Virus record (IMG/VR): IMGVR_UViG_3300036850_000037
Location: 1-40,373 of that record
Reading direction: 5' to 3' (one strand)
Source: a virus
DNA: 40,373 nt
In this document: positions 1 through 40,373 of the stretch, in pieces
How positions within the stretch are numbered: position 1 is the stretch's first letter
How the letters are laid out: every line of letters starts with the position of its first letter
Translations under genes and position numbers: made by a program
Notes under the pieces: model-generated
What the model was told of the DNA's origin: nothing
Database searches by the model: none
What the model saw: the letters and a program-made list of their open reading frames with translations, nothing else

Positions 1-127
1 ACGCGCTCGCGCCAGTGCTCGCCAAGCACGGCCTCGTAATTCTACCGCGCATCCTGTCGAGGGAGTGCGTCGAGCGGCAGACCCAGAAGGGCGGGACGCT
101 CTTCTACGTGACGGTGGAGGCCGAGTT
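1..127. repeat. Left copy of the 127-bp terminal direct repeat (assembly overlap)
   Basis: Bases 1-127 are identical to bases 40247-40373. An exact terminal overlap of 127 bases equals a common maximal assembly k-mer, so I read it as a circular contig rather than a biological terminal repeat. The reading frame of the Erf-like gene continues perfectly through it, which supports circular closure and a unit length of 40,246 bp. Confidence 0.95.
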
Positions 128-503
128 TGACTTCGTGGCGGCGGTGGACGGCAGCAAGCATACGGCCCGGACCTACGGGGAAGCGATGGACAGCGCCGAC
201 AAGGCCACGAACAAGGCCATGAGCGCGGCATACAAGTACGTCACGTTTCAGACGTTCTGCATCCCGACCGAGGGCGACAACGACGCGGACGCGCACACGC
301 CGGAGCCGGGCCGGCCGACGCCTCCGTCTGGCTATGCGGATTGGTACGCGGATCTGTGCGGGGTCGCGGATGAAGGCTCCGAGCGGCTGAAGGCGACATG
401 GAACGTCTCAACGCTCGAATACCGGAAGTTCCTCGCGGAGCATGAGAACGGCGCTTGGGAAGGACTGAAGGCCCGGGCCGCGAAGGTGAAAGCAAGTGCG
501 TAA
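3..503 (+). CDS. erf: ERF-family ssDNA annealing protein, 3' portion (gene spans the contig junction)
   Basis: This is the C-terminal part of a single-strand annealing protein that pairs complementary strands during phage recombination and genome circularisation. The gene begins at 40117 and, once the terminal repeat is collapsed, runs 633 nt (210 residues), a normal ERF length. Its N-terminal part carries the typical region with KNEQQHYKFRGVDDVYNAL; the part here includes YGEAMDSADKATNKAMSAAY, a conserved ERF core helix. The C-terminal tail, rich in Pro then Trp/Lys, is variable in the family. The stop at 501-503 overlaps the GTG start of the exonuclease gene at 496, so the annealing protein and nuclease form a coupled recombination pair like Red beta/exo. 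The GTG at 15 is internal and not the start. Confidence 0.85.
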   Translation, partial: ALAPVLAKHGLVILPRILSRECVERQTQKGGTLFYVTVEAEFDFVAAVDGSKHTARTYGEAMDSADKATNKAMSAAYKYVTFQTFCIPTEGDNDADAHTPEPGRPTPPSGYADWYADLCGVADEGSERLKATWNVSTLEYRKFLAEHENGAWEGLKARAAKVKASA

Positions 504-1137
504 TTTCACGGTCGTATCCGCTGAGCAGCGGTCGCCTGAGTGGTTCAAGGCGCGGGCCGGCCGTCTCACGGCGAGCAGGGCCAAGGACATGCTGGCGACC
601 ATCAAGAGCGGCGAAGCAGCAGCGCGGCGCGACCTCCGCGTGCAATTGGTCTGCGAAAGGCTCACCGGAGAGCCGCAGGAAGACGTCTTCGTGAACGCCG
701 ACATGAAGCGTGGCGTCGAGCTCGAGGCGGACGCCTTCGCAGCCTACGAAGCACTGACCGGCCAGATGGCGCAGCGGTGCGGGTTCGTGGCCCATAACGA
801 GCTACTGATTGGCTGCTCGCCAGACGGTGTCATTGATGACTTTGTGGGCATCGTGGAATTGAAGGTGCCGCGCTCGGCGACGCACCTCGGGTATCTGAGG
901 GCCGGGGCGTTGCCAGTGGAACACAGGGCCCAAGCGACGCACTCGCTACTGGTGACCGGCGCGGAGTACTGCGATTTCCTCTCGTTCGACCCGCGTTTCC
1001 CGCCGCATCTGCAGACGTTCTATGTGCGGGTCTTGCGTAAAGACGTGGACTTAGCGGCCTACGAACTGGCGGTGAGGCTCTTTCTGAGCGAAGTCGAGAA
1101 GGAAGTAGAAGCCGTGGCTGGGATGGCCGCGGCATAG
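496..1137 (+). CDS. YqaJ/lambda-type 5'-3' exonuclease
   Basis: A 213-residue alkaline-exonuclease-fold nuclease that would resect double-strand ends to give 3' overhangs for the Erf-like annealer encoded just upstream. The N-terminus has the family signature QRSPEWFKARAGRLTAS. A central GCSPDGVIDDFVGIVELKVP stretch supplies the acidic D...E-x-K nuclease residues, and HRAQATHSLLVTG is the family's Q motif. Length and motif order match viral YqaJ recombinases. The GTG start overlaps the previous stop, implying translational coupling. Function is inferred from family motifs; confidence is high. Confidence 0.88.
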   Translation: MRNFTVVSAEQRSPEWFKARAGRLTASRAKDMLATIKSGEAAARRDLRVQLVCERLTGEPQEDVFVNADMKRGVELEADAFAAYEALTGQMAQRCGFVAHNELLIGCSPDGVIDDFVGIVELKVPRSATHLGYLRAGALPVEHRAQATHSLLVTGAEYCDFLSFDPRFPPHLQTFYVRVLRKDVDLAAYELAVRLFLSEVEKEVEAVAGMAAA

Positions 1138-1140
1138 GAG

Positions 1141-1341
1141 ATGGACGTGGCAGAGAAGAATCCGGATGAACTCGGCGCACTGTGGGAGAAAGAAGGGCCG
1201 CGAGGGGTCTACTTCACAGGCACTATCGGGACCGAACGCGTGGTGGTGTTCCGCAATGACAAGAAGGCCAACGAGAAAGCGCCCGACTGGCGCGTACTGA
1301 AAGCCAAGCCGAAGCCGCAGACTGATTCGGTACCGTTCTAA
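1141..1341 (+). CDS. Small DUF736-like protein
   Basis: A 66-residue protein that begins four bases after the exonuclease stop with a GGAG ribosome site just upstream. The pattern YFTGTIGTERVVVFRN followed by APDWRVLKAKPK resembles the short DUF736 fold often found beside phage recombination genes, where a beta hairpin ends in a PDWRV-type strand. No catalytic residues are apparent. Its position suggests a co-expressed accessory of the annealing/exonuclease pair. The family link is by eye and moderate. Confidence 0.7.
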   Translation: MDVAEKNPDELGALWEKEGPRGVYFTGTIGTERVVVFRNDKKANEKAPDWRVLKAKPKPQTDSVPF

Positions 1342-1352
1342 CCCTGGAGGCC

Positions 1353-1475
1353 GTGGTGGCTGATTATCTTGATTGGCTCTGGTCTTGGCTATTCGGCCCC
1401 TGTGAGGAGATTAATACCGATTCCTATGCGGGCTGGGCGGCTCATGAGCGGTGTGTGAATCGAGGTTGCCGATGA
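1353..1475 (+). CDS. Small Cys-containing protein, 40 aa
   Basis: An ORF starting GTG at 1353 (or GTG 1356) three bases after a strong CTGGAGG ribosome site, with the stop overlapping the next ATG as ATGA at 1472-1475. The product is Trp/acid-rich, with DWLWSWLFG near the N-terminus and Cys/His residues (C-E-E, H-E-R-C, R-G-C) near the C-terminus. I do not recognise a family. The RBS plus tight overlap with the next gene supports it being real. Confidence 0.55.
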   Translation: MVADYLDWLWSWLFGPCEEINTDSYAGWAAHERCVNRGCR

Positions 1476-1675
1476 GCGCTGATTACGTCGATGACCGTCA
1501 TGAGCGGCAGTGGGGCTGGGGGATTTGCGTTGTCTGCGGCGTGGACTGCGAAGAGGACGACTACGACGAGGACCGCCGTAGCAGCGTCTGTAAAGACTGC
1601 CGCGCGGAGCAACGCGAGCAGCAGCGACTGAGCGACGAGGACCGGCTGGCACTCGAAGTCTTTGCGAGGCGGTGA
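1472..1675 (+). CDS. Small zinc-ribbon-like acidic protein
   Basis: A 67-residue protein. The ATG at 1472 is preferred over the GTG at 1451 because GAGG sits at 1462-1465 with good spacing and the start overlaps the previous stop. It has two CxxC pairs, CVVCGVDC and CKDC, separated by a very acidic EEDDYDED stretch, so a zinc-binding knuckle is likely. The C-terminus is a charged helix. The stop overlaps the next ATG (TGATG). Role unknown; such proteins are common in early phage operons. Confidence 0.65.
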   Translation: MSADYVDDRHERQWGWGICVVCGVDCEEDDYDEDRRSSVCKDCRAEQREQQRLSDEDRLALEVFARR

Positions 1676-2070
1676 TGCCGTCTTTCTTCAAATGGGATGC
1701 GCCGTCTCGGTTCGACCTCGCGAAAGAGAAAGAGCTAGAAGAGGCGGCGGCATGGGAGAAGGCCCGCAAGGCGGTGGATGCGCGGGACAAGCGCATCTGC
1801 CGGGCCTGCGGCAAGCGGAGCGAGTTAGACGCGGTTGGACTGACAAAGAGGGGGCACAGGCACCACCTCGTCTATCGGAGCGCAGGCGGGAAAGATATCT
1901 CGAGCAACTTAGTAACACTGTGCAGCAAATGCCATAACGAAGAGCACATGCACAGGCTACGAATCGACGGCGACGCGGACGTGAAATTGGAGTTCTGGCG
2001 GTTGGCGGTGGATGACGAGTGGTATCTGGACCGGCGCGAGGTCGCGCCTGGCATAGTGGAAAAGGATTGA
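1675..2070 (+). CDS. HNH endonuclease
   Basis: A 131-residue protein with a canonical HNH module: CRACGK near residue 40, then HHLVYRSAGG (catalytic His pair), SSNLVTLC (Asn) and CSKCHNEEH (Zn-binding Cys pair and final His). An N-terminal Lys/Glu-rich helix precedes the domain. HNH enzymes of this size nick or cut DNA and in phages act as homing nucleases or with terminase. Here it lies in the early region, far from terminase, so a mobile nuclease is more likely. ATG at 1675 overlaps the previous stop; a GTG at 1672 is an alternative start. Confidence 0.88.
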   Translation: MPSFFKWDAPSRFDLAKEKELEEAAAWEKARKAVDARDKRICRACGKRSELDAVGLTKRGHRHHLVYRSAGGKDISSNLVTLCSKCHNEEHMHRLRIDGDADVKLEFWRLAVDDEWYLDRREVAPGIVEKD

Positions 2071-2078
2071 GCAGACAC

Positions 2079-2426
2079 ATGAGACTATCGATTATTGGGC
2101 TGGTATGTATTCTCGGCAGCGCGGCGTGTAACCAGGGCGGCGCCCCGTCAATCGCGGGACCCTCGGGCATAGCGGCACCTACGGTGCAGTACTCGGCAAC
2201 CGTCACTGTCCTCGACGGGGCCGATCCGGACTGCAACGGTGTGTGCCAGGTCTCGAAGTATGAGAACTATCCGGCCGAGCCTCCGTCGCCTGTCTACTAT
2301 CAGCAGTCCTATAGCGATCCCTGCACGACCAAGTGGGGTTCACCGTGGCACACCTATGCGCTGTGGTGGGAAGGCGAGCCGAACGACCCATGGGGACCGG
2401 CGCCAATCCATTTGTGCGGTCAGTAG
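2079..2426 (+). CDS. Predicted phage lipoprotein
   Basis: A 115-residue secreted protein. The N-terminus MRLSIIGLVCILGSAAC is a short signal peptide ending in a lipobox (G-S-A-A-C), so Cys17 would be lipidated. The mature part is Pro/Trp/Tyr-rich with several Cys (PDCNGVC, SDPC, HLC) that could form disulfides in the periplasm. Early phage lipoproteins often act as superinfection-exclusion or surface-conversion factors; that role is inference only. The open frame extends upstream to 2019 but overlaps the HNH gene; the ATG at 2079 gives the clear signal peptide. Confidence 0.75.
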   Translation: MRLSIIGLVCILGSAACNQGGAPSIAGPSGIAAPTVQYSATVTVLDGADPDCNGVCQVSKYENYPAEPPSPVYYQQSYSDPCTTKWGSPWHTYALWWEGEPNDPWGPAPIHLCGQ

Positions 2427-2437
2427 TAACACATTAC

Positions 2438-2543
2438 GGCAGTGTCGGCGTTGATGGTGAAACGCAGAAGATCGTGGGATCTGGAGAGGGATAGCGCCCA
2501 CGTCGCTAAACCCTCAAGCCGGTTCGAATCCGGCACACTGCCT
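2438..2543 (+). tRNA. Non-canonical tRNA-like RNA with 8+5 bp acceptor/T stack and long variable arm
   Basis: Perfect 8-bp acceptor (2438-2445 with 2535-2542), 5-bp T stem (2518-2522 with 2530-2534) and a canonical TTCGAAT T loop. The D arm can form 5 bp (2448-2452 with 2461-2465) around a GG-containing loop. A long two-part variable arm pairs 2486-2490 with 2511-2515 and 2492-2496 with 2504-2508. The anticodon arm is odd: AGATC/GATCT (2469-2473, 2478-2482) pairs perfectly but leaves only GTGG as loop. A forced 7-base loop with CGT anticodon needs two mismatches. The 13-bp acceptor/T stack is otherwise typical of selenocysteine tRNA, but no TCA anticodon is present. No CCA is encoded. It may be a degenerate tRNA or a tRNA mimic. 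Confidence 0.6.
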
Positions 2544-2680
2544 TCATATCGGGTCCATTTTCAGGCGCGTGATCAGAGGAGAGGCGCGGCTGCAGGTAGT
2601 CATGCACCGACAGCGGCGCACTGGAACGCGGGGGCTAGTCGGGAGTGATTGGCCCCGCCCGATTCACTCGGAGGCCACCC

Positions 2681-2851
2681 ATGATCCTGCTACGAAATCT
2701 CTTGTATCGGCTGTATGAGCTGACGACGAAACAGCTCTCGCCGCTGGAAGCGAAGCGCCGGATTGTGCAGATTGACGTGTATCGAGGCCAACGGTTGCAG
2801 AGACGATTTGAGCGCAGGCTGGCCGAGCAAGGGCCTCCGGGGGCGGCGTGA
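2681..2851 (+). CDS. Small basic helical protein, 56 aa
   Basis: ATG at 2681 follows a strong GGAGG at 2670-2674. The open frame reaches further upstream (2645) but only this start has a ribosome site. The N-terminal half is hydrophobic/amphipathic (MILLRNLLYRLYELTT), the rest is Arg-rich (YRGQRLQRRFERRL). It overlaps the start of the RuvC-like gene by four bases (GTGA). Family not recognised; co-transcription suggests a DNA-metabolism accessory. Confidence 0.6.
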   Translation: MILLRNLLYRLYELTTKQLSPLEAKRRIVQIDVYRGQRLQRRFERRLAEQGPPGAA

Positions 2852-3333
2852 CGGTGTTGGCGATCGATCCGGGCTACGAGCAGAGCGCAGTAGTGCTCTA
2901 CGACGGCTCGCGCGTCGAGACACACCGCATTCTGCCGAACGACGAACTCTTGTCGCACCTGTGCCACGACGACGACTTGCCGGAGACGTGCGTGATTGAG
3001 CAGATCGCTAGCTATGGAATGCCGGTCGGGGCTGAGGTGTTCGGCACGGTTCGGTGGTCTGGGCGCTTCGAGCAGGCGTTTCTCATGCGAAACCGTCTCC
3101 GTAACAGCGTCGCGCTGATGCCTCGCCGCGACGTCAAGCTGCACCTGTGCAACAGCGCCCGCGCCAAGGACGCCAACGTTCGTCAGGCGCTCTTGGATCG
3201 CTTCGGAGGGGAGAAGGTCGCCAAAGGGACGAAAGCCGCGCCTGGGCCGCTCTACGGGCTCAAGAAGGATGAATGGGCGGCCTTGGCAATTGCGGTGACG
3301 TGGATGGATACGAAATGTCCTGCTGCGCCCTAG
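2848..3333 (+). CDS. RuvC-like Holliday junction resolvase
   Basis: A 161-residue RNase H-fold endonuclease. The N-terminus TVLAIDPGYEQSAVVLYDG is the first strand pair with catalytic Asp7. VIEQIASYGMPVG supplies Glu51, and the C-terminal KKDEWAALAIAV has the final acidic residue Asp141 in a helix. This motif order is that of RuvC-type crossover junction resolvases. It would cut branched recombination intermediates made by the Erf/exonuclease pair, or debranch DNA before packaging. The GTG start overlaps the previous stop. Confidence 0.85.
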   Translation: MTVLAIDPGYEQSAVVLYDGSRVETHRILPNDELLSHLCHDDDLPETCVIEQIASYGMPVGAEVFGTVRWSGRFEQAFLMRNRLRNSVALMPRRDVKLHLCNSARAKDANVRQALLDRFGGEKVAKGTKAAPGPLYGLKKDEWAALAIAVTWMDTKCPAAP

Positions 3334-3491
3334 AGGGCTGTCAGTCTCCGCAGTGTCCAGTCTGTCGGTTTGCGGGCCGCACAGCAATTGAGATTGAGCG
3401 ATCGTTACGCGTGGCGTGGCGAGCGAAACGTGGGATACGTGAAGAGTTGCCAGCGTTGAAGTATCCGGAACCGAAAAAGAAGAAGACATGA
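3315..3491 (+). CDS. Small Cys-rich basic protein, 58 aa
   Basis: ATG at 3315, overlapping the resolvase C-terminus by 19 bases. The N-terminus MSCCALEGCQSPQCPVC has six Cys and probably binds zinc. The rest is basic and ends KYPEPKKKKT. Its stop overlaps the ATG of the methyltransferase gene (ATGA). No recognised family. The tight overlaps on both sides support translation. Confidence 0.55.
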   Translation: MSCCALEGCQSPQCPVCRFAGRTAIEIERSLRVAWRAKRGIREELPALKYPEPKKKKT

Positions 3492-4339
3492 CGCCCTATA
3501 GATCACGCTGCGATTCTACCAACGGCATTCAACATTTGGATGCTAGCTCGCAGGGCCGTCCATTGGTGTCAATTGTACTACGGAAACCATTAATGATTCG
3601 CCCCTATTACGAGCAGGACGGCATAGCCATATTCCACGGCGATTGCCGAGACATTCTGCCGCAGCTCGGGCCGGTGGACCATGTGATTACAGACCCGCCG
3701 TACGCCCTGATTGTTGTGAATACGTCAAAGGGTGCTCCGAATGGGAAGATTGGCTTAGCCTCACGTCGCGACTTAGGTTACTCAGGCATCTCGGACGATG
3801 ACCGCTTACTCGTCGGCGCTTGCGTTGGTCGTGTTACGAAACGATGGGCGCTTGTCTTCTGCGATGCGGAAAGCCTGACAGCGTGGCGTATCGCGCTTGA
3901 AGGTGGAGGGCTGCGCCATGTCCGAATGGGCTCATGGGTTTCTCCTGCCTGCACGCCGCAATTTACCGGCGACCGTCCAGGCACCGGGTGGGAAGGGTGC
4001 GAGATTGCGCACGGCAAGGGCAAGAGTCGGTGGAACGGTGGCGGCAAGCCTGCGGCGTGGGTGATCAACAGGCCACTCAATGGAAGTCAAGAGCGCGCAG
4101 AGACCGGCCATCCAACACCGAAGCCGGTCGCGTTGTTCAATCAGATCGTGGCCGACTACACCGACCCCGGTGAAACCATCCTCGATCCCTTCATGGGCAG
4201 CGGCACCACGTTAGTCGCGGCCAAGCGGTTAGGTCGTAAAGCCATCGGCATCGAGTTGGAAGAGAAGTATTGCGCCATTGCCGCTCGCAGGCTTTCGCAA
4301 GGCGCGCTGAACCTGTTTGCTGAGGAACAACCAGCATGA
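3488..4339 (+). CDS. DNA adenine/cytosine-N4 methyltransferase (DPPY type)
   Basis: A 283-residue (or 248-residue) site-specific DNA methyltransferase. DPPY at residues 69-72 is the catalytic motif IV, HPTPKP at 208-213 precedes the AdoMet pocket, and DPFMGSGTT at 233-241 is motif I. The order, catalytic motif before AdoMet motif, is the beta class. The ATG at 3488 overlaps the previous stop, but conserved family similarity begins only at MIRPYYEQDG, whose ATG is at 3593; the 35 N-terminal residues may be extra. No partner restriction enzyme is visible, so it is an orphan enzyme, likely for anti-restriction or genome marking. Confidence 0.88.
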   Translation: MTPYRSRCDSTNGIQHLDASSQGRPLVSIVLRKPLMIRPYYEQDGIAIFHGDCRDILPQLGPVDHVITDPPYALIVVNTSKGAPNGKIGLASRRDLGYSGISDDDRLLVGACVGRVTKRWALVFCDAESLTAWRIALEGGGLRHVRMGSWVSPACTPQFTGDRPGTGWEGCEIAHGKGKSRWNGGGKPAAWVINRPLNGSQERAETGHPTPKPVALFNQIVADYTDPGETILDPFMGSGTTLVAAKRLGRKAIGIELEEKYCAIAARRLSQGALNLFAEEQPA

Positions 4340-4578
4340 AACCAGAAACCATCTGTCTCGCACCAAAAGCCAAGCCCGCGTCGAGCTCCTGGTGGGCATG
4401 TTCCTACCCAACTCGGGCAGGCTGGTATCAAGCCGCGCACGACGCCTCTGAACGGCTCAAAGGCGCCAAGAAGGTCTATCCCAGCGACTGCGATACGGGA
4501 CGGTTTGGCGACTACTGGAAGAAGCCAAAGACCTACGAGCGGCCGTATGTGGCGGACGACGTCGAGCAGGTGGCGTGA
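4336..4578 (+). CDS. Hypothetical protein, 80 aa
   Basis: ATG at 4336 overlaps the methyltransferase stop (ATGA). The protein is aromatic-rich (SSSWWACSYPTRAGWYQAAH) with a basic/Tyr C-terminal half (GRFGDYWKKPKTYERPY). No family recognised. It is the last gene before a 455-base non-coding stretch. Confidence 0.6.
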   Translation: MKPETICLAPKAKPASSSWWACSYPTRAGWYQAAHDASERLKGAKKVYPSDCDTGRFGDYWKKPKTYERPYVADDVEQVA

Positions 4579-4609
4579 AATAGAGAGATTTATGTTGCAG
4601 GAAGGGCGA

Positions 4610-4673
4610 GCCGATGTGACACTGAGAGGGAAAGCAGGATGTTTGGAACCTGCTTCCCCTCGTCACCCTCGGC
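4610..4673 (+). ncRNA. Candidate structured RNA hairpin
   Basis: Nested helices stack into one long stem: 4610-4614 with 4669-4673, GTGAC 4616-4620 with GTCAC 4662-4666, GAGGG 4626-4630 with CCCTC 4657-4661, and AAGCAGG 4632-4638 with CCTGCTT 4649-4655, closing a 10-base loop. About 22 pairs occur in 64 bases. There is no T run after it, so it is not a simple terminator. The strand is assumed from neighbouring transcription. Confidence 0.5.
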
Positions 4674-4845
4674 TGTTGAGAGCAGCTTTGAGCGACTGAC
4701 TCAAGCCTAACACAAAGCCAAGGAAACGAAGCGTCACCCGAGCAGCACGGCGGCGGGCGGGTGCGTGGCAAGGTGGCTACCCGGCGATCTGCACAGCCAC
4801 AGCGTGGAGCGCAACTCCTAGAGCGCGCAGAGGCGTCCGAAACAT

Positions 4846-4893
4846 GGGCGGAGAGTCTGGGAGAGCGGAGCAGATGATTTCCTGACTCCGCCC
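4846..4893. repeat. GC-rich inverted repeat
   Basis: GGGCGGAG at 4846-4853 pairs perfectly with CTCCGCCC at 4886-4893. An inner TCTG (4856-4859) can pair with CAGA (4871-4874), and flanking CAT/ATG can extend the stem past one unpaired A. It may be an RNA hairpin or a DNA site in the non-coding region. Confidence 0.55.
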
Positions 4894-5033
4894 AATGGTG
4901 ACGGCCGACTTCCGTACGGGATGGCACGTCATGCAGGCGAGCGCGCTGCAAACTGCGGCGATAGCTTCGCCTGCTGGCAGACGAACCAAGCTTCCACCGG
5001 GATGTTAAGAGAGTACGGATAGAGAGGTACGGG

Positions 5034-6740: not shown

Positions 6741-7108
6741 GTCAGAAGGTTCGCTACTGGGATTACGACACGAACGCGTGGGCCTACGGTCTGAGCACCT
6801 GGGACGGCAAGGCGTTACCCTTTGATGATTCAGGCTGGCAGCAGAAAGAACCAGTTTTGGGTCAAGGCGCGTATGATCAGGGGAAATTCATTACGCCAAC
6901 CGAGATGCGCAAGGCCAAGCACGTCGTGCCGGCCGAGATGGGGGTTTGGTCGAAGTCGGCAGGGTATGCTGAAACCACACCGTCGGTCGTATCCTGCGGA
7001 TGTGGCAAAAAGCTCAATATGCGCGATGCGAGATTGAGACTGCGGCGCTGTCAGAAGTGCCGGGATGCAAATCGAGCAACGTTGAGAAAGCCGAAGAGGG
7101 CGGCGTAG
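6737..7108 (+). CDS. Hypothetical protein with C-terminal zinc ribbon
   Basis: A 123-residue protein; ATG at 6737 overlaps the previous stop and GGAGGG lies at 6727-6732. The N-terminal 80 residues are Trp/Asp-rich (VRYWDYDTNAWAYGL) and unfamiliar. The C-terminal CGCGKKLNMR ... LRRCQKCRD forms a zinc ribbon, and the end is basic. Function unknown. Confidence 0.62.
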   Translation: MSQKVRYWDYDTNAWAYGLSTWDGKALPFDDSGWQQKEPVLGQGAYDQGKFITPTEMRKAKHVVPAEMGVWSKSAGYAETTPSVVSCGCGKKLNMRDARLRLRRCQKCRDANRATLRKPKRAA

Positions 7109-35462: not shown

Positions 35463-35701
35463 GGTTCCACGTGTGGTGCCACGAATGTTAGTCCAGACAG
35501 TCTTTATATGTGCCATTTCATTCCAATTCCTGTGAAGTGGAACCAGCCGTGGAACCGAGGCGAAACCACAGATAAACGCCTGAAAACATGCGAGATAACT
35601 GGCGGAAGCGCCTGGGAGTCGAACGCAAAGCCCGCGCCTGTATCTGACTGCATACACGTCACTTCTCGTCGGTTCCACGTTGCGGTTCCACGCGGTTCCA
35701 G
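35463..35701. repeat. Cluster of GGTTCCAC repeats (putative integrase arm sites)
   Basis: The 8-mer occurs at 35463-35470, 35671-35678, 35684-35691 and (one mismatch) 35694-35701, and inverted as GTGGAACC at 35537-35544 and 35549-35556. They flank the tRNA-like core at 35600-35623, as arm-type sites flank a phage core. Three copies lie within the int 3' end. Confidence 0.65.
35600..35623 (-). other. attP: Putative attP core matching the 3' end of a selenocysteine tRNA gene
   Basis: On the minus strand this reads a T-loop TTCGACT, T-stem 3' strand CCCAG, an 8-base acceptor 3' strand GCGCTTCC, G73 and CCA. Five plus eight bases between the T loop and G73 are specific to bacterial tRNA-Sec, and the beginning and end match Escherichia coli selC (TTCGACTCC ... 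CTTCCGCCA). No 5' tRNA half is present. Next to the integrase gene and direct repeats, it is the likely attachment core, predicting integration in host selC. Confidence 0.82.
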
Positions 35702-36717
35702 CCATTGAACCGTCCGGACAAGCTCTCACTGAGGGCCTGCATGCGGCTGCCGAGCACTGGTACATAGTGCTTGCGGGTCGTCTCGCGGCGCTTGTGCCCG
35801 AGCGCGGCGCCGACGTCGTCGAGGTCAATCCCAGACTCTGAGAGCGTGATGCCGAGCGTGTGGCGGCTCTGGTAGGGCCGCACGCCTTCTGGCCAGCCTG
35901 CGGTCCTGAGCGTTCGCACGAACGAGCTCTCGTTGAAGTCGCCCCACGCATTCGCCTCCGCGAACAACCGCCACGCCGCAAGCTGGTCGTCGTTCAAGTA
36001 CAGCCCCGGCGTGAAGCCGCCCTTGCCGTCTCGAGGCACCCACACGCGCTGATCGAGGTCCACGTCTGTCGGCTGTGTGCGCGCAATTTCGGACGGTCGT
36101 CGGCCGAAGCTCACCATCACCCGGTACCTAGCTCGCGTCTTTGCATTTCTCAGCCAGCCACGGCGCTCATGCTCTTGGAGCTTCGCATCCACGGCCAAGA
36201 TCGTCTCGTCAGAGACGCGCTGGATCGGGGTGCGGTGAATCGGCAGATCATCGATCTCGTCGCAGGGTGTCTCGATATTTTTCCCGTCCAGCACGCGGTA
36301 CAAGTTCCCCATGGTCCAGATGCGGTTGTTGCACGTTTTCGGCGCCACGCCGGCTTGGAGCCACGCGGTACGCATGTCCAGCACGTCGGCCTTCAGGATC
36401 TGCGATCGTCGCTTGTCGCCCAGCGCACGCACTAGGGCACGCACCTCAGACCGCCGCTCGCGCCAGCTTGCCAGATGCCTTGTCAGCCGCTCGTAGGTGG
36501 CGGCGTCGGCCGCCAGCGTGCCACGGCTGGGCGTCGGCCTCGCCGTGTGCATCCGGGCCGCCCAGCGCTCCATGTCTTTGCGGATGTCTTTGAGCGCCGT
36601 ACCGTGCTGGAACCGCAATTCTTTCGGCGCGTGGCCTCGAACTCGGACAATGGCAGAAATGCCAGAGGCGTCACGAAAGACGTTGGTTGCGATCCGTGTG
36701 CGCTGGCCTCGGCTCAT
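35659..36717 (-). CDS. int: Tyrosine recombinase integrase
   Basis: A 352-residue phage integrase from ATG 36717; a TTG at 36738 gives 359. The catalytic pattern is visible: FGRRPSEIA (Arg206/207), RDGKGG (Lys232), PYQSRHTLG (Arg285, His286), GHKRRETTRKHY (His308, Tyr318). The N-terminal region would bind arm sites. It is adjacent to the attP core at 35600-35623, and its 3' end carries three copies of the GGTTCCAC repeat. Integrates the phage in the host tRNA-Sec gene, by inference. Confidence 0.9.
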   Translation of the reverse strand: MSRGQRTRIATNVFRDASGISAIVRVRGHAPKELRFQHGTALKDIRKDMERWAARMHTARPTPSRGTLAADAATYERLTRHLASWRERRSEVRALVRALGDKRRSQILKADVLDMRTAWLQAGVAPKTCNNRIWTMGNLYRVLDGKNIETPCDEIDDLPIHRTPIQRVSDETILAVDAKLQEHERRGWLRNAKTRARYRVMVSFGRRPSEIARTQPTDVDLDQRVWVPRDGKGGFTPGLYLNDDQLAAWRLFAEANAWGDFNESSFVRTLRTAGWPEGVRPYQSRHTLGITLSESGIDLDDVGAALGHKRRETTRKHYVPVLGSRMQALSESLSGRFNGWNRVEPQRGTDEK

Positions 36718-36765
36718 AGGGCGACTGTCCAAACACAACGCGAAGATGTAACGAAACCGTAAGTA

Positions 36766-40116: not shown

Positions 40117-40373
40117 ATGGAAGACACGCCGAAGGTCTACGGCTGTATTGCGGCGGTCAGTGCGGAGATCGCGAAAACAGGCATCGCGAAAGACCGCAAG
40201 AACGAGCAGCAGCATTACAAGTTCCGCGGCGTCGATGACGTCTACAACGCGCTCGCGCCAGTGCTCGCCAAGCACGGCCTCGTAATTCTACCGCGCATCC
40301 TGTCGAGGGAGTGCGTCGAGCGGCAGACCCAGAAGGGCGGGACGCTCTTCTACGTGACGGTGGAGGCCGAGTT
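40117..40373 (+). CDS. erf: ERF-family ssDNA annealing protein, 5' portion
   Basis: ATG 40117 is one base after the previous stop. The N-terminus EDTPKVYGCIAAVSAEIAKT, then KNEQQHYKFRGVDDVYNAL is the typical ERF beginning. The window ends mid-gene, but 40247-40373 equals 1-127 and the frame continues in the window's start to 503. The complete product is 210 residues. Confidence 0.9.
   Translation, partial: MEDTPKVYGCIAAVSAEIAKTGIAKDRKNEQQHYKFRGVDDVYNALAPVLAKHGLVILPRILSRECVERQTQKGGTLFYVTVEAE
40247..40373. repeat. Right copy of the 127-bp terminal direct repeat
   Basis: Identical to bases 1-127. Collapse one copy to obtain the circular genome. See the left copy for reasoning. Confidence 0.95.

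Follow-up and report, generated by a model that had tools for sequence, protein, structure and literature searches.

Introduction

The tRNA-like domain of transfer-messenger RNA (tmRNA) joins the acceptor and T arm of a transfer RNA (tRNA) to pseudoknots, and plant viruses carry pseudoknot-containing tRNA mimics at the 3' ends of their RNA genomes. Here we describe a tRNA-like RNA of 105 nucleotides (nt) encoded by a DNA phage, together with its relatives in other phages and prophages. It lies at positions 2438 to 2542 (plus strand) of IMG/VR virus record IMGVR_UViG_3300036850_000037; the whole stretch of 40,373 nt is referred to as the window, and the RNA as the window RNA. These phage RNAs resemble the tmRNA domain in having a tRNA acceptor and T arm along with predicted pseudoknots, and they resemble the plant virus structures in being tRNA mimics with such elements. 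Unlike tmRNA, the window RNA has a real D stem, is just 105 nt long, and matched no tmRNA model in Rfam or ARAGORN. In contrast to the 3' ends of RNA genomes, the phage RNAs are free-standing genes.

The window RNA can also be compared with tRNA-like molecules that have been studied in bacteria and their phages. A pseudo-tRNA of Bacillus cereus, tRNA-Other, is likewise a tRNA-like RNA and is reported to act outside translation, but its anticodon is that of Trp, it is found in Bacilli, and it has been linked to T-box regulation (PMC3399842). Phage tRNAs can counter tRNA-cutting defenses (PMC11555353, PMC13096335). The tRNA-Tyr of T5 and T6 that evades these defenses is similar in being the product of a phage tRNA gene with a possible decoy or supply role, but it is a decoding tRNA with an ordinary anticodon (PMC11555353, PMC13096335).

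The window RNA keeps a tRNA shell and lacks a decoding loop

The window RNA forms a perfect cloverleaf without a 7-base anticodon loop. Its parts, all on the plus strand, are as follows.

2438 to 2542, plus strand: tRNA-like RNA, 105 nt, starting 12 nt past the end of an upstream open reading frame (ORF)
2438 to 2445, plus strand: acceptor 5' strand GGCAGUGU, 8 bp, equivalent to 7 bp plus a G-1:C73 pair
2448 to 2465, plus strand: D arm GCGUU-GAUGGUGA-AACGC, tRNA-Leu-like, its stem identical in a relative (locus L442, 4364 to 4465)
2469 to 2482, plus strand: anticodon-position hairpin AGAUC-GUGG-GAUCU or, with loop and variable arm paired, AGAU-CGUGGG-AUCU
2473 to 2478, plus strand: loop strand CGUGGG, complement of 2497 to 2502 by sequence, duplex energy, and a pseudoknot test against shuffles
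2486 to 2515, plus strand: variable arm, 30 nt, with helices GAGGG/CCCUC and, inside, AGCG/CGCU; loop CCCACGU
2497 to 2502, plus strand: CCCACG, the strand of the variable-arm loop proposed to pair with the loop strand 2473 to 2478
2518 to 2534, plus strand: T arm GCCGG-UUCGAAU-CCGGC, canonical
2535 to 2542, plus strand: acceptor 3' strand ACACUGCC, followed by UUCAUAUC; CCA is not encoded

A sequence-only reading of this stretch had described perfectly paired acceptor, D, and T arms, an anticodon stem closing on GTGG with no standard 7-base loop, and a 30-base variable arm of two helices. The fold bore out each of these features: GGCAGUGU and ACACUGCC pair at 8 of 8 positions, the D and T stems are complete, the anticodon-position hairpin closes on GUGG, and GAGGG..CCCUC encloses AGCG-CCCACGU-CGCU. 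The RNA was found where that reading had placed it (2438 to 2543), with its 3' end one position earlier, at 2542. The minimum free energy (MFE) of the RNA alone was -47.8 kcal/mol. With one extra 5' base (2437 to 2542), it was -48.1 kcal/mol, compared with -34.2 ± 3.4 kcal/mol for dinucleotide shuffles (z = -4.06), and none of 200 shuffles was equally stable. A tRNA-shell descriptor recovered the RNA in the window; equally good matches occurred in 0 of 200 shuffled windows.

Decoding tRNAs present a 7-nt loop on a paired anticodon stem. The corresponding loop here is GUGG or CGUGGG, and a register that places U33 in it creates two stem mismatches, as read from the sequence. ARAGORN found 0 genes in the RNA. 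Overlooked in the sequence-only reading was the full complementarity of CGUGGG (2473 to 2478) to CCCACG (2497 to 2502), which as an isolated duplex has an energy of -9.2 kcal/mol. If the two loops pair, the anticodon-position loop would be closed and decoding impossible. Together with the loop pairing in the class described below, the complementarity suggests that the window RNA is a closed, non-decoding tRNA mimic.

The shell resembles tRNA-Leu rather than selenocysteine tRNA

The sequence-only reading had linked the RNA to selenocysteine tRNA (tRNA-Sec). Bacterial tRNA-Sec (RF01852) does share with it the 8+5 acceptor/T stack as drawn, a long variable arm, and UGGU in the D loop. Rfam gave 0 matches at the gathering threshold, and a relaxed-threshold search of 401 nt gave tRNA-Sec as the sole match, scoring 31 bits where the cut-off is 47 (E = 2.4e-4). 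The same model assigned 40.8 bits to an ordinary phage tRNA, a stretch that ARAGORN calls tRNA-Ser. The window RNA has no UCA anticodon in a 7-nt loop, and its D-arm sequence is of the Leu type. The 13-bp stack, all 8 acceptor pairs of which form, does not clearly single out tRNA-Sec and was not retained as evidence for it, because in this register the 8-bp acceptor is a 7-bp acceptor plus an N-1:N73 pair. Of the 586 ordinary tRNAs in the loci fetched, 245 have a Watson-Crick pair there (tRNA-Leu, 48 of 85). A tRNA-Sec identity was rejected on the score and the missing anticodon loop, and a selenocysteine reading is not supported.

When the D-arm and T-arm sequences were used for a scan, most of the matches were ordinary phage tRNA-Leu(UAA) genes whose D loop is UUGGUGAAACGC; therefore, the shell is Leu-like. 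Judged by sequence, it is a class II shell with a tRNA-Leu-type D arm and a canonical T arm. The window RNA has in common with phage tRNA-Leu the D-arm sequence GGCG...UGGUGAAACGC, the T arm GGUUCGAAUCC, a long variable arm, and its location in a phage. It differs in that the 7-base anticodon loop is missing, the loop at the anticodon position complements the variable-arm loop, and ARAGORN does not recognize it. The discriminator is C73 in the 7-bp register or U after the 8-bp acceptor, not the A73 of tRNA-Leu.

Anticodon-less tRNA-like RNAs occur in many phages and prophages

We defined a class of RNAs by an intact shell, the absence of a 7-nt anticodon loop, and a negative ARAGORN result, all of which the window RNA displays. 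Searches by pattern and by shell descriptor spanned viral contigs and bacterial genomes; L numbers designate the loci or contigs compared. In 4.07 Mb of loci, the descriptor identified 158 distinct ARAGORN-negative tRNA-like RNAs with an intact Leu-like shell and no recognized anticodon loop, a count that is not a frequency, as many loci were picked by shell patterns. Three shuffles of 4.39 Mb gave 1, 0, and 0 matches. The D/T-arm scan also yielded ARAGORN-negative tRNA-like RNAs in L183/L186 and L187. A standard 7-base loop in relatives, which the sequence-only reading had named as a refutation, was not recognized in the ARAGORN-negative ones.

In place of the anticodon and variable arms, class members have middles of 42 to 110 nt (descriptor score ≥7.4). 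One frequent type, UAGUCAGG...CCUGACUA (AGTCAGG-type), has 51 members on 39 contigs; identity averages 0.86 across shells and 0.50 across middles, compared with 0.49 for shuffled middles. Clustering of the middles at 0.58 identity fused nearly everything, and 0.66 was used instead. The nearest relative of the window RNA by D arm, in L442, bears its own complementary 3' segment, GUUGC pairing with GCAAC.

Members were found in phages and prophages, sometimes in arrays: L285 has eight within about 3 kb, with ordinary tRNAs interspersed. The genes adjoining four members encode, by Pfam, ERF and SSB (L422), TerL and portal (L434), TerL (L409), and a sigma-70 factor (L403). A genome scan identified members in Bacteroides, Sphingobacterium, Riemerella, Paenibacillus, and others, and the pattern was rare among genomes (3/150 and 5/301), as expected for a prophage-borne gene. 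Most loci fetched through neighboring genes lacked such an RNA by the descriptor, the exact 3'-half pattern of the window RNA was absent from the viral contigs, and phage BLAST searches with the L015 and L169 sequences gave no matches. RF00005 captures several members, the window RNA reaching no threshold, and Rfam at gathering and permissive thresholds contained no family dedicated to the class. A description of the class was not found in open-access papers, the only ones searchable, which does not prove that none exists. On these sequence comparisons, the RNAs appear to form a previously undescribed class that is widespread among phages and prophages, keeps the tRNA shell, and would be unable to read codons.

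Several observations on individual loci were made along the way. The array in L285 lies in an ORF-poor region (1 to 4957) that also contains several ordinary tRNAs. Within their middles, 8 of 187 class members, against 0.05 expected from shuffles, contain another complete T arm: L387 (3501 to 3655), L327 (333 to 478), L310 (6302 to 6422), L311 (5438 to 5577), L341 (2005 to 2127), L382 (4837 to 4946), L326 (13211 to 13355), and L402, the last probably an assembly duplication. The L387 fold is a tRNA-like structure nested in another. Moraxella and Klebsiella phage matches turned out to be ordinary tRNA-Leu. Gammaproteobacterial metagenome assemblies contained Leu-bodied tRNAs whose anticodons read GGA, GGC, or CGC (L406, L416, L425, and L427) or CCC (L430).

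Pairing between the loop and the 3' part is enriched in the class

Complementarity analogous to that of the window RNA is present in L183 (AUGUGG/CCACAU) and L206 (AACGUG/CACGUU), and also in L243 and L302. The first pseudoknot score took in the anticodon-position stem and proved unspecific, with ordinary tRNA-Leu also scoring. It was replaced by a loop-to-tail test in which the stem was picked without sight of the tail and ordinary class II tRNAs (Leu, Ser, and Tyr) served as controls. Pairing of the loop to the 3' part reached p ≤ 0.05 in 21 of 126 class members and in 4 of 117 controls (Mann-Whitney p = 2e-8).

The sequence-only reading had also called for compensatory base changes in relatives, and these were observed. 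Between L302 and L310, the anticodon-position stem carries two double changes and the loop-loop pairing carries one, all compensatory, and L374 and L435 differ by one compensatory double change in a stem. A stem in L300/L388 included a non-standard A-G pair and was not used as covariation.

Discussion

We consider it most likely, with a probability of roughly 0.6, that the class consists of phage and prophage RNAs in which a tRNA shell carries a variable, often pseudoknotted domain and that these are non-decoding tRNA mimics. We propose that the class II, tRNA-Leu-like acceptor stem, D arm, and T arm are kept and that the anticodon and variable arms have been swapped for the hypervariable domain; in the window RNA, the CGUGGG-CCCACG pairing would shut the anticodon-position loop and prevent decoding. 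The shell, the lack of a decoding loop, the relatives, the hypervariable middle, and the enriched loop pairing were observed directly in the sequences. Processing, CCA addition, charging, target, and role are what we infer from them: RNase P and RNase Z would probably excise the RNA from a phage transcript, after which CCA would be added. The mimic may then act on host factors that recognize the acceptor and elbow or that cleave tRNAs, as a decoy or sponge whose anticodon position offers nothing to cut. We prefer this role tentatively, at less than even odds, because tRNAs of phages have been found to overcome tRNA-cutting defenses and because rapid evolution of the core would suit an arms race. 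A decoy and a mimic resistant to anticodon nucleases were among the possibilities raised in the sequence-only reading, and either may be correct.

Several results weigh against this interpretation. The loop pairing of the window RNA comprises 6 bp in one sequence, with p = 0.01 for the joint pseudoknot against shuffles and p = 0.09 with the stem chosen blind, and it rests on that sequence because no close homolog of the window RNA core was found in the sequence searches made. BLAST against 50,697 phage records gave short partial matches only, and the phage relatives L084 and L089, read by eye, have no such RNA at the homologous place. Not every class member shows such pairing (L015, p = 0.68). 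The search patterns favor Leu-like shells and long middles, biasing the size and limits of the class, and some genome matches were duplicated (tandem) or gapped and partly assembled ordinary tRNA-Leu (L402, L413, L423, and L440, for example), which were set aside.

The main rival to the decoy role is that the shell serves processing and stability, recruiting RNase P and RNase Z to cleave phage transcripts and shielding the termini of a variable regulatory RNA domain held in the middle. The constant shell and hypervariable middle, the start of the window RNA 12 nt past an ORF, and the terminator-like hairpin and T run that follow the L015 copy would all fit such a scaffold; the tendency of the middles toward structure and toward pairing with their own 3' part argues against it, and we regard it as possible but improbable. 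A degenerate phage tRNA-Leu that lost its anticodon arm through a deletion and is drifting, an option raised in the sequence-only reading, would account for the single copy in this phage, the unencoded CCA, the absence from the relatives checked, and the clear resemblance to tRNA-Leu. It is nevertheless unlikely, since every stem is perfect and very stable, many members keep the same shell, the L302/L310 changes are compensatory, and one phage (L285) carries an array.

Charging by leucyl- and seryl-tRNA synthetases (LeuRS and SerRS) is independent of the anticodon, so the window RNA could be charged and donate its amino acid outside the ribosome. The class II shell and its Leu-like D and T arms are compatible with this, and tRNA-Other is an earlier case of a pseudo-tRNA with a reported role outside translation (PMC3399842), but the discriminator is not A73 and no phage enzyme using aminoacyl-tRNA was identified; we think such a function quite unlikely. 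Splicing of an intron to restore a normal anticodon loop could explain why some middles are long and why ARAGORN gives scattered isotypes to some AGTCAGG-type members. The middle of the window RNA, however, is just 52 nt and is filled by two perfect hairpins, and a common exon anticodon loop was not seen across middles, making an intron very improbable. A selenocysteine tRNA mimic that targets SelA, SelB, or SerRS, the proposal of the sequence-only reading, would surprise us similarly: the 8+5 stack and the top-scoring Rfam model speak for it, and the subthreshold score, the higher score of tRNA-Ser, the common N-1:N73 pair, and the Leu-type D arm speak against it.

To return to non-decoding mimics, if these RNAs are decoys or scaffolds, phage tRNA genes would serve more than codon supply, and which host tRNA-targeting systems are acted on would become directly testable. 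Because tRNA gene finders skip such RNAs or assign meaningless isotypes to them, a stratum of non-coding RNA in phages may have gone unnoticed. A tRNA shell with a replaceable core would also be a natural design for stable small RNAs. A bolder picture, a large phage class whose interchangeable, fast-evolving pseudoknotted cores, some with a second T arm (L387), are arrayed as decoys against host immunity, is in our view rather doubtful.

Genomic context

The window has an exact 127-bp direct repeat at its termini (1 to 127 and 40247 to 40373), so a complete genome of about 40.2 kb, circular or permuted, is probably represented. Upstream of the window RNA are genes for a YqaJ recombinase and an HNH nuclease, and downstream is a DNA methylase gene; no promoter or terminator was predicted around the RNA. 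The sequence-only reading had tied the RNA to selC targeting. A selC-like 3' end, GTTCGACTCCCAGGCGCTTCCGCCA, does occur at about 35612 on the minus strand, near an integrase gene (35659 to 36738), and is a separate feature, probably attP, that is independent of the tRNA-like RNA.

Phages with YqaJ genes also contain a conserved segment with pairable ends, GGGGGAAAGCGGAUGC...GCAGCGAGUACCCC. Its L169 copy (about 6992 to 7075) had no match in Rfam; the other sites are in L173 (about 6826 to 6905), L122 (from 4113), and L172 (from 5262).
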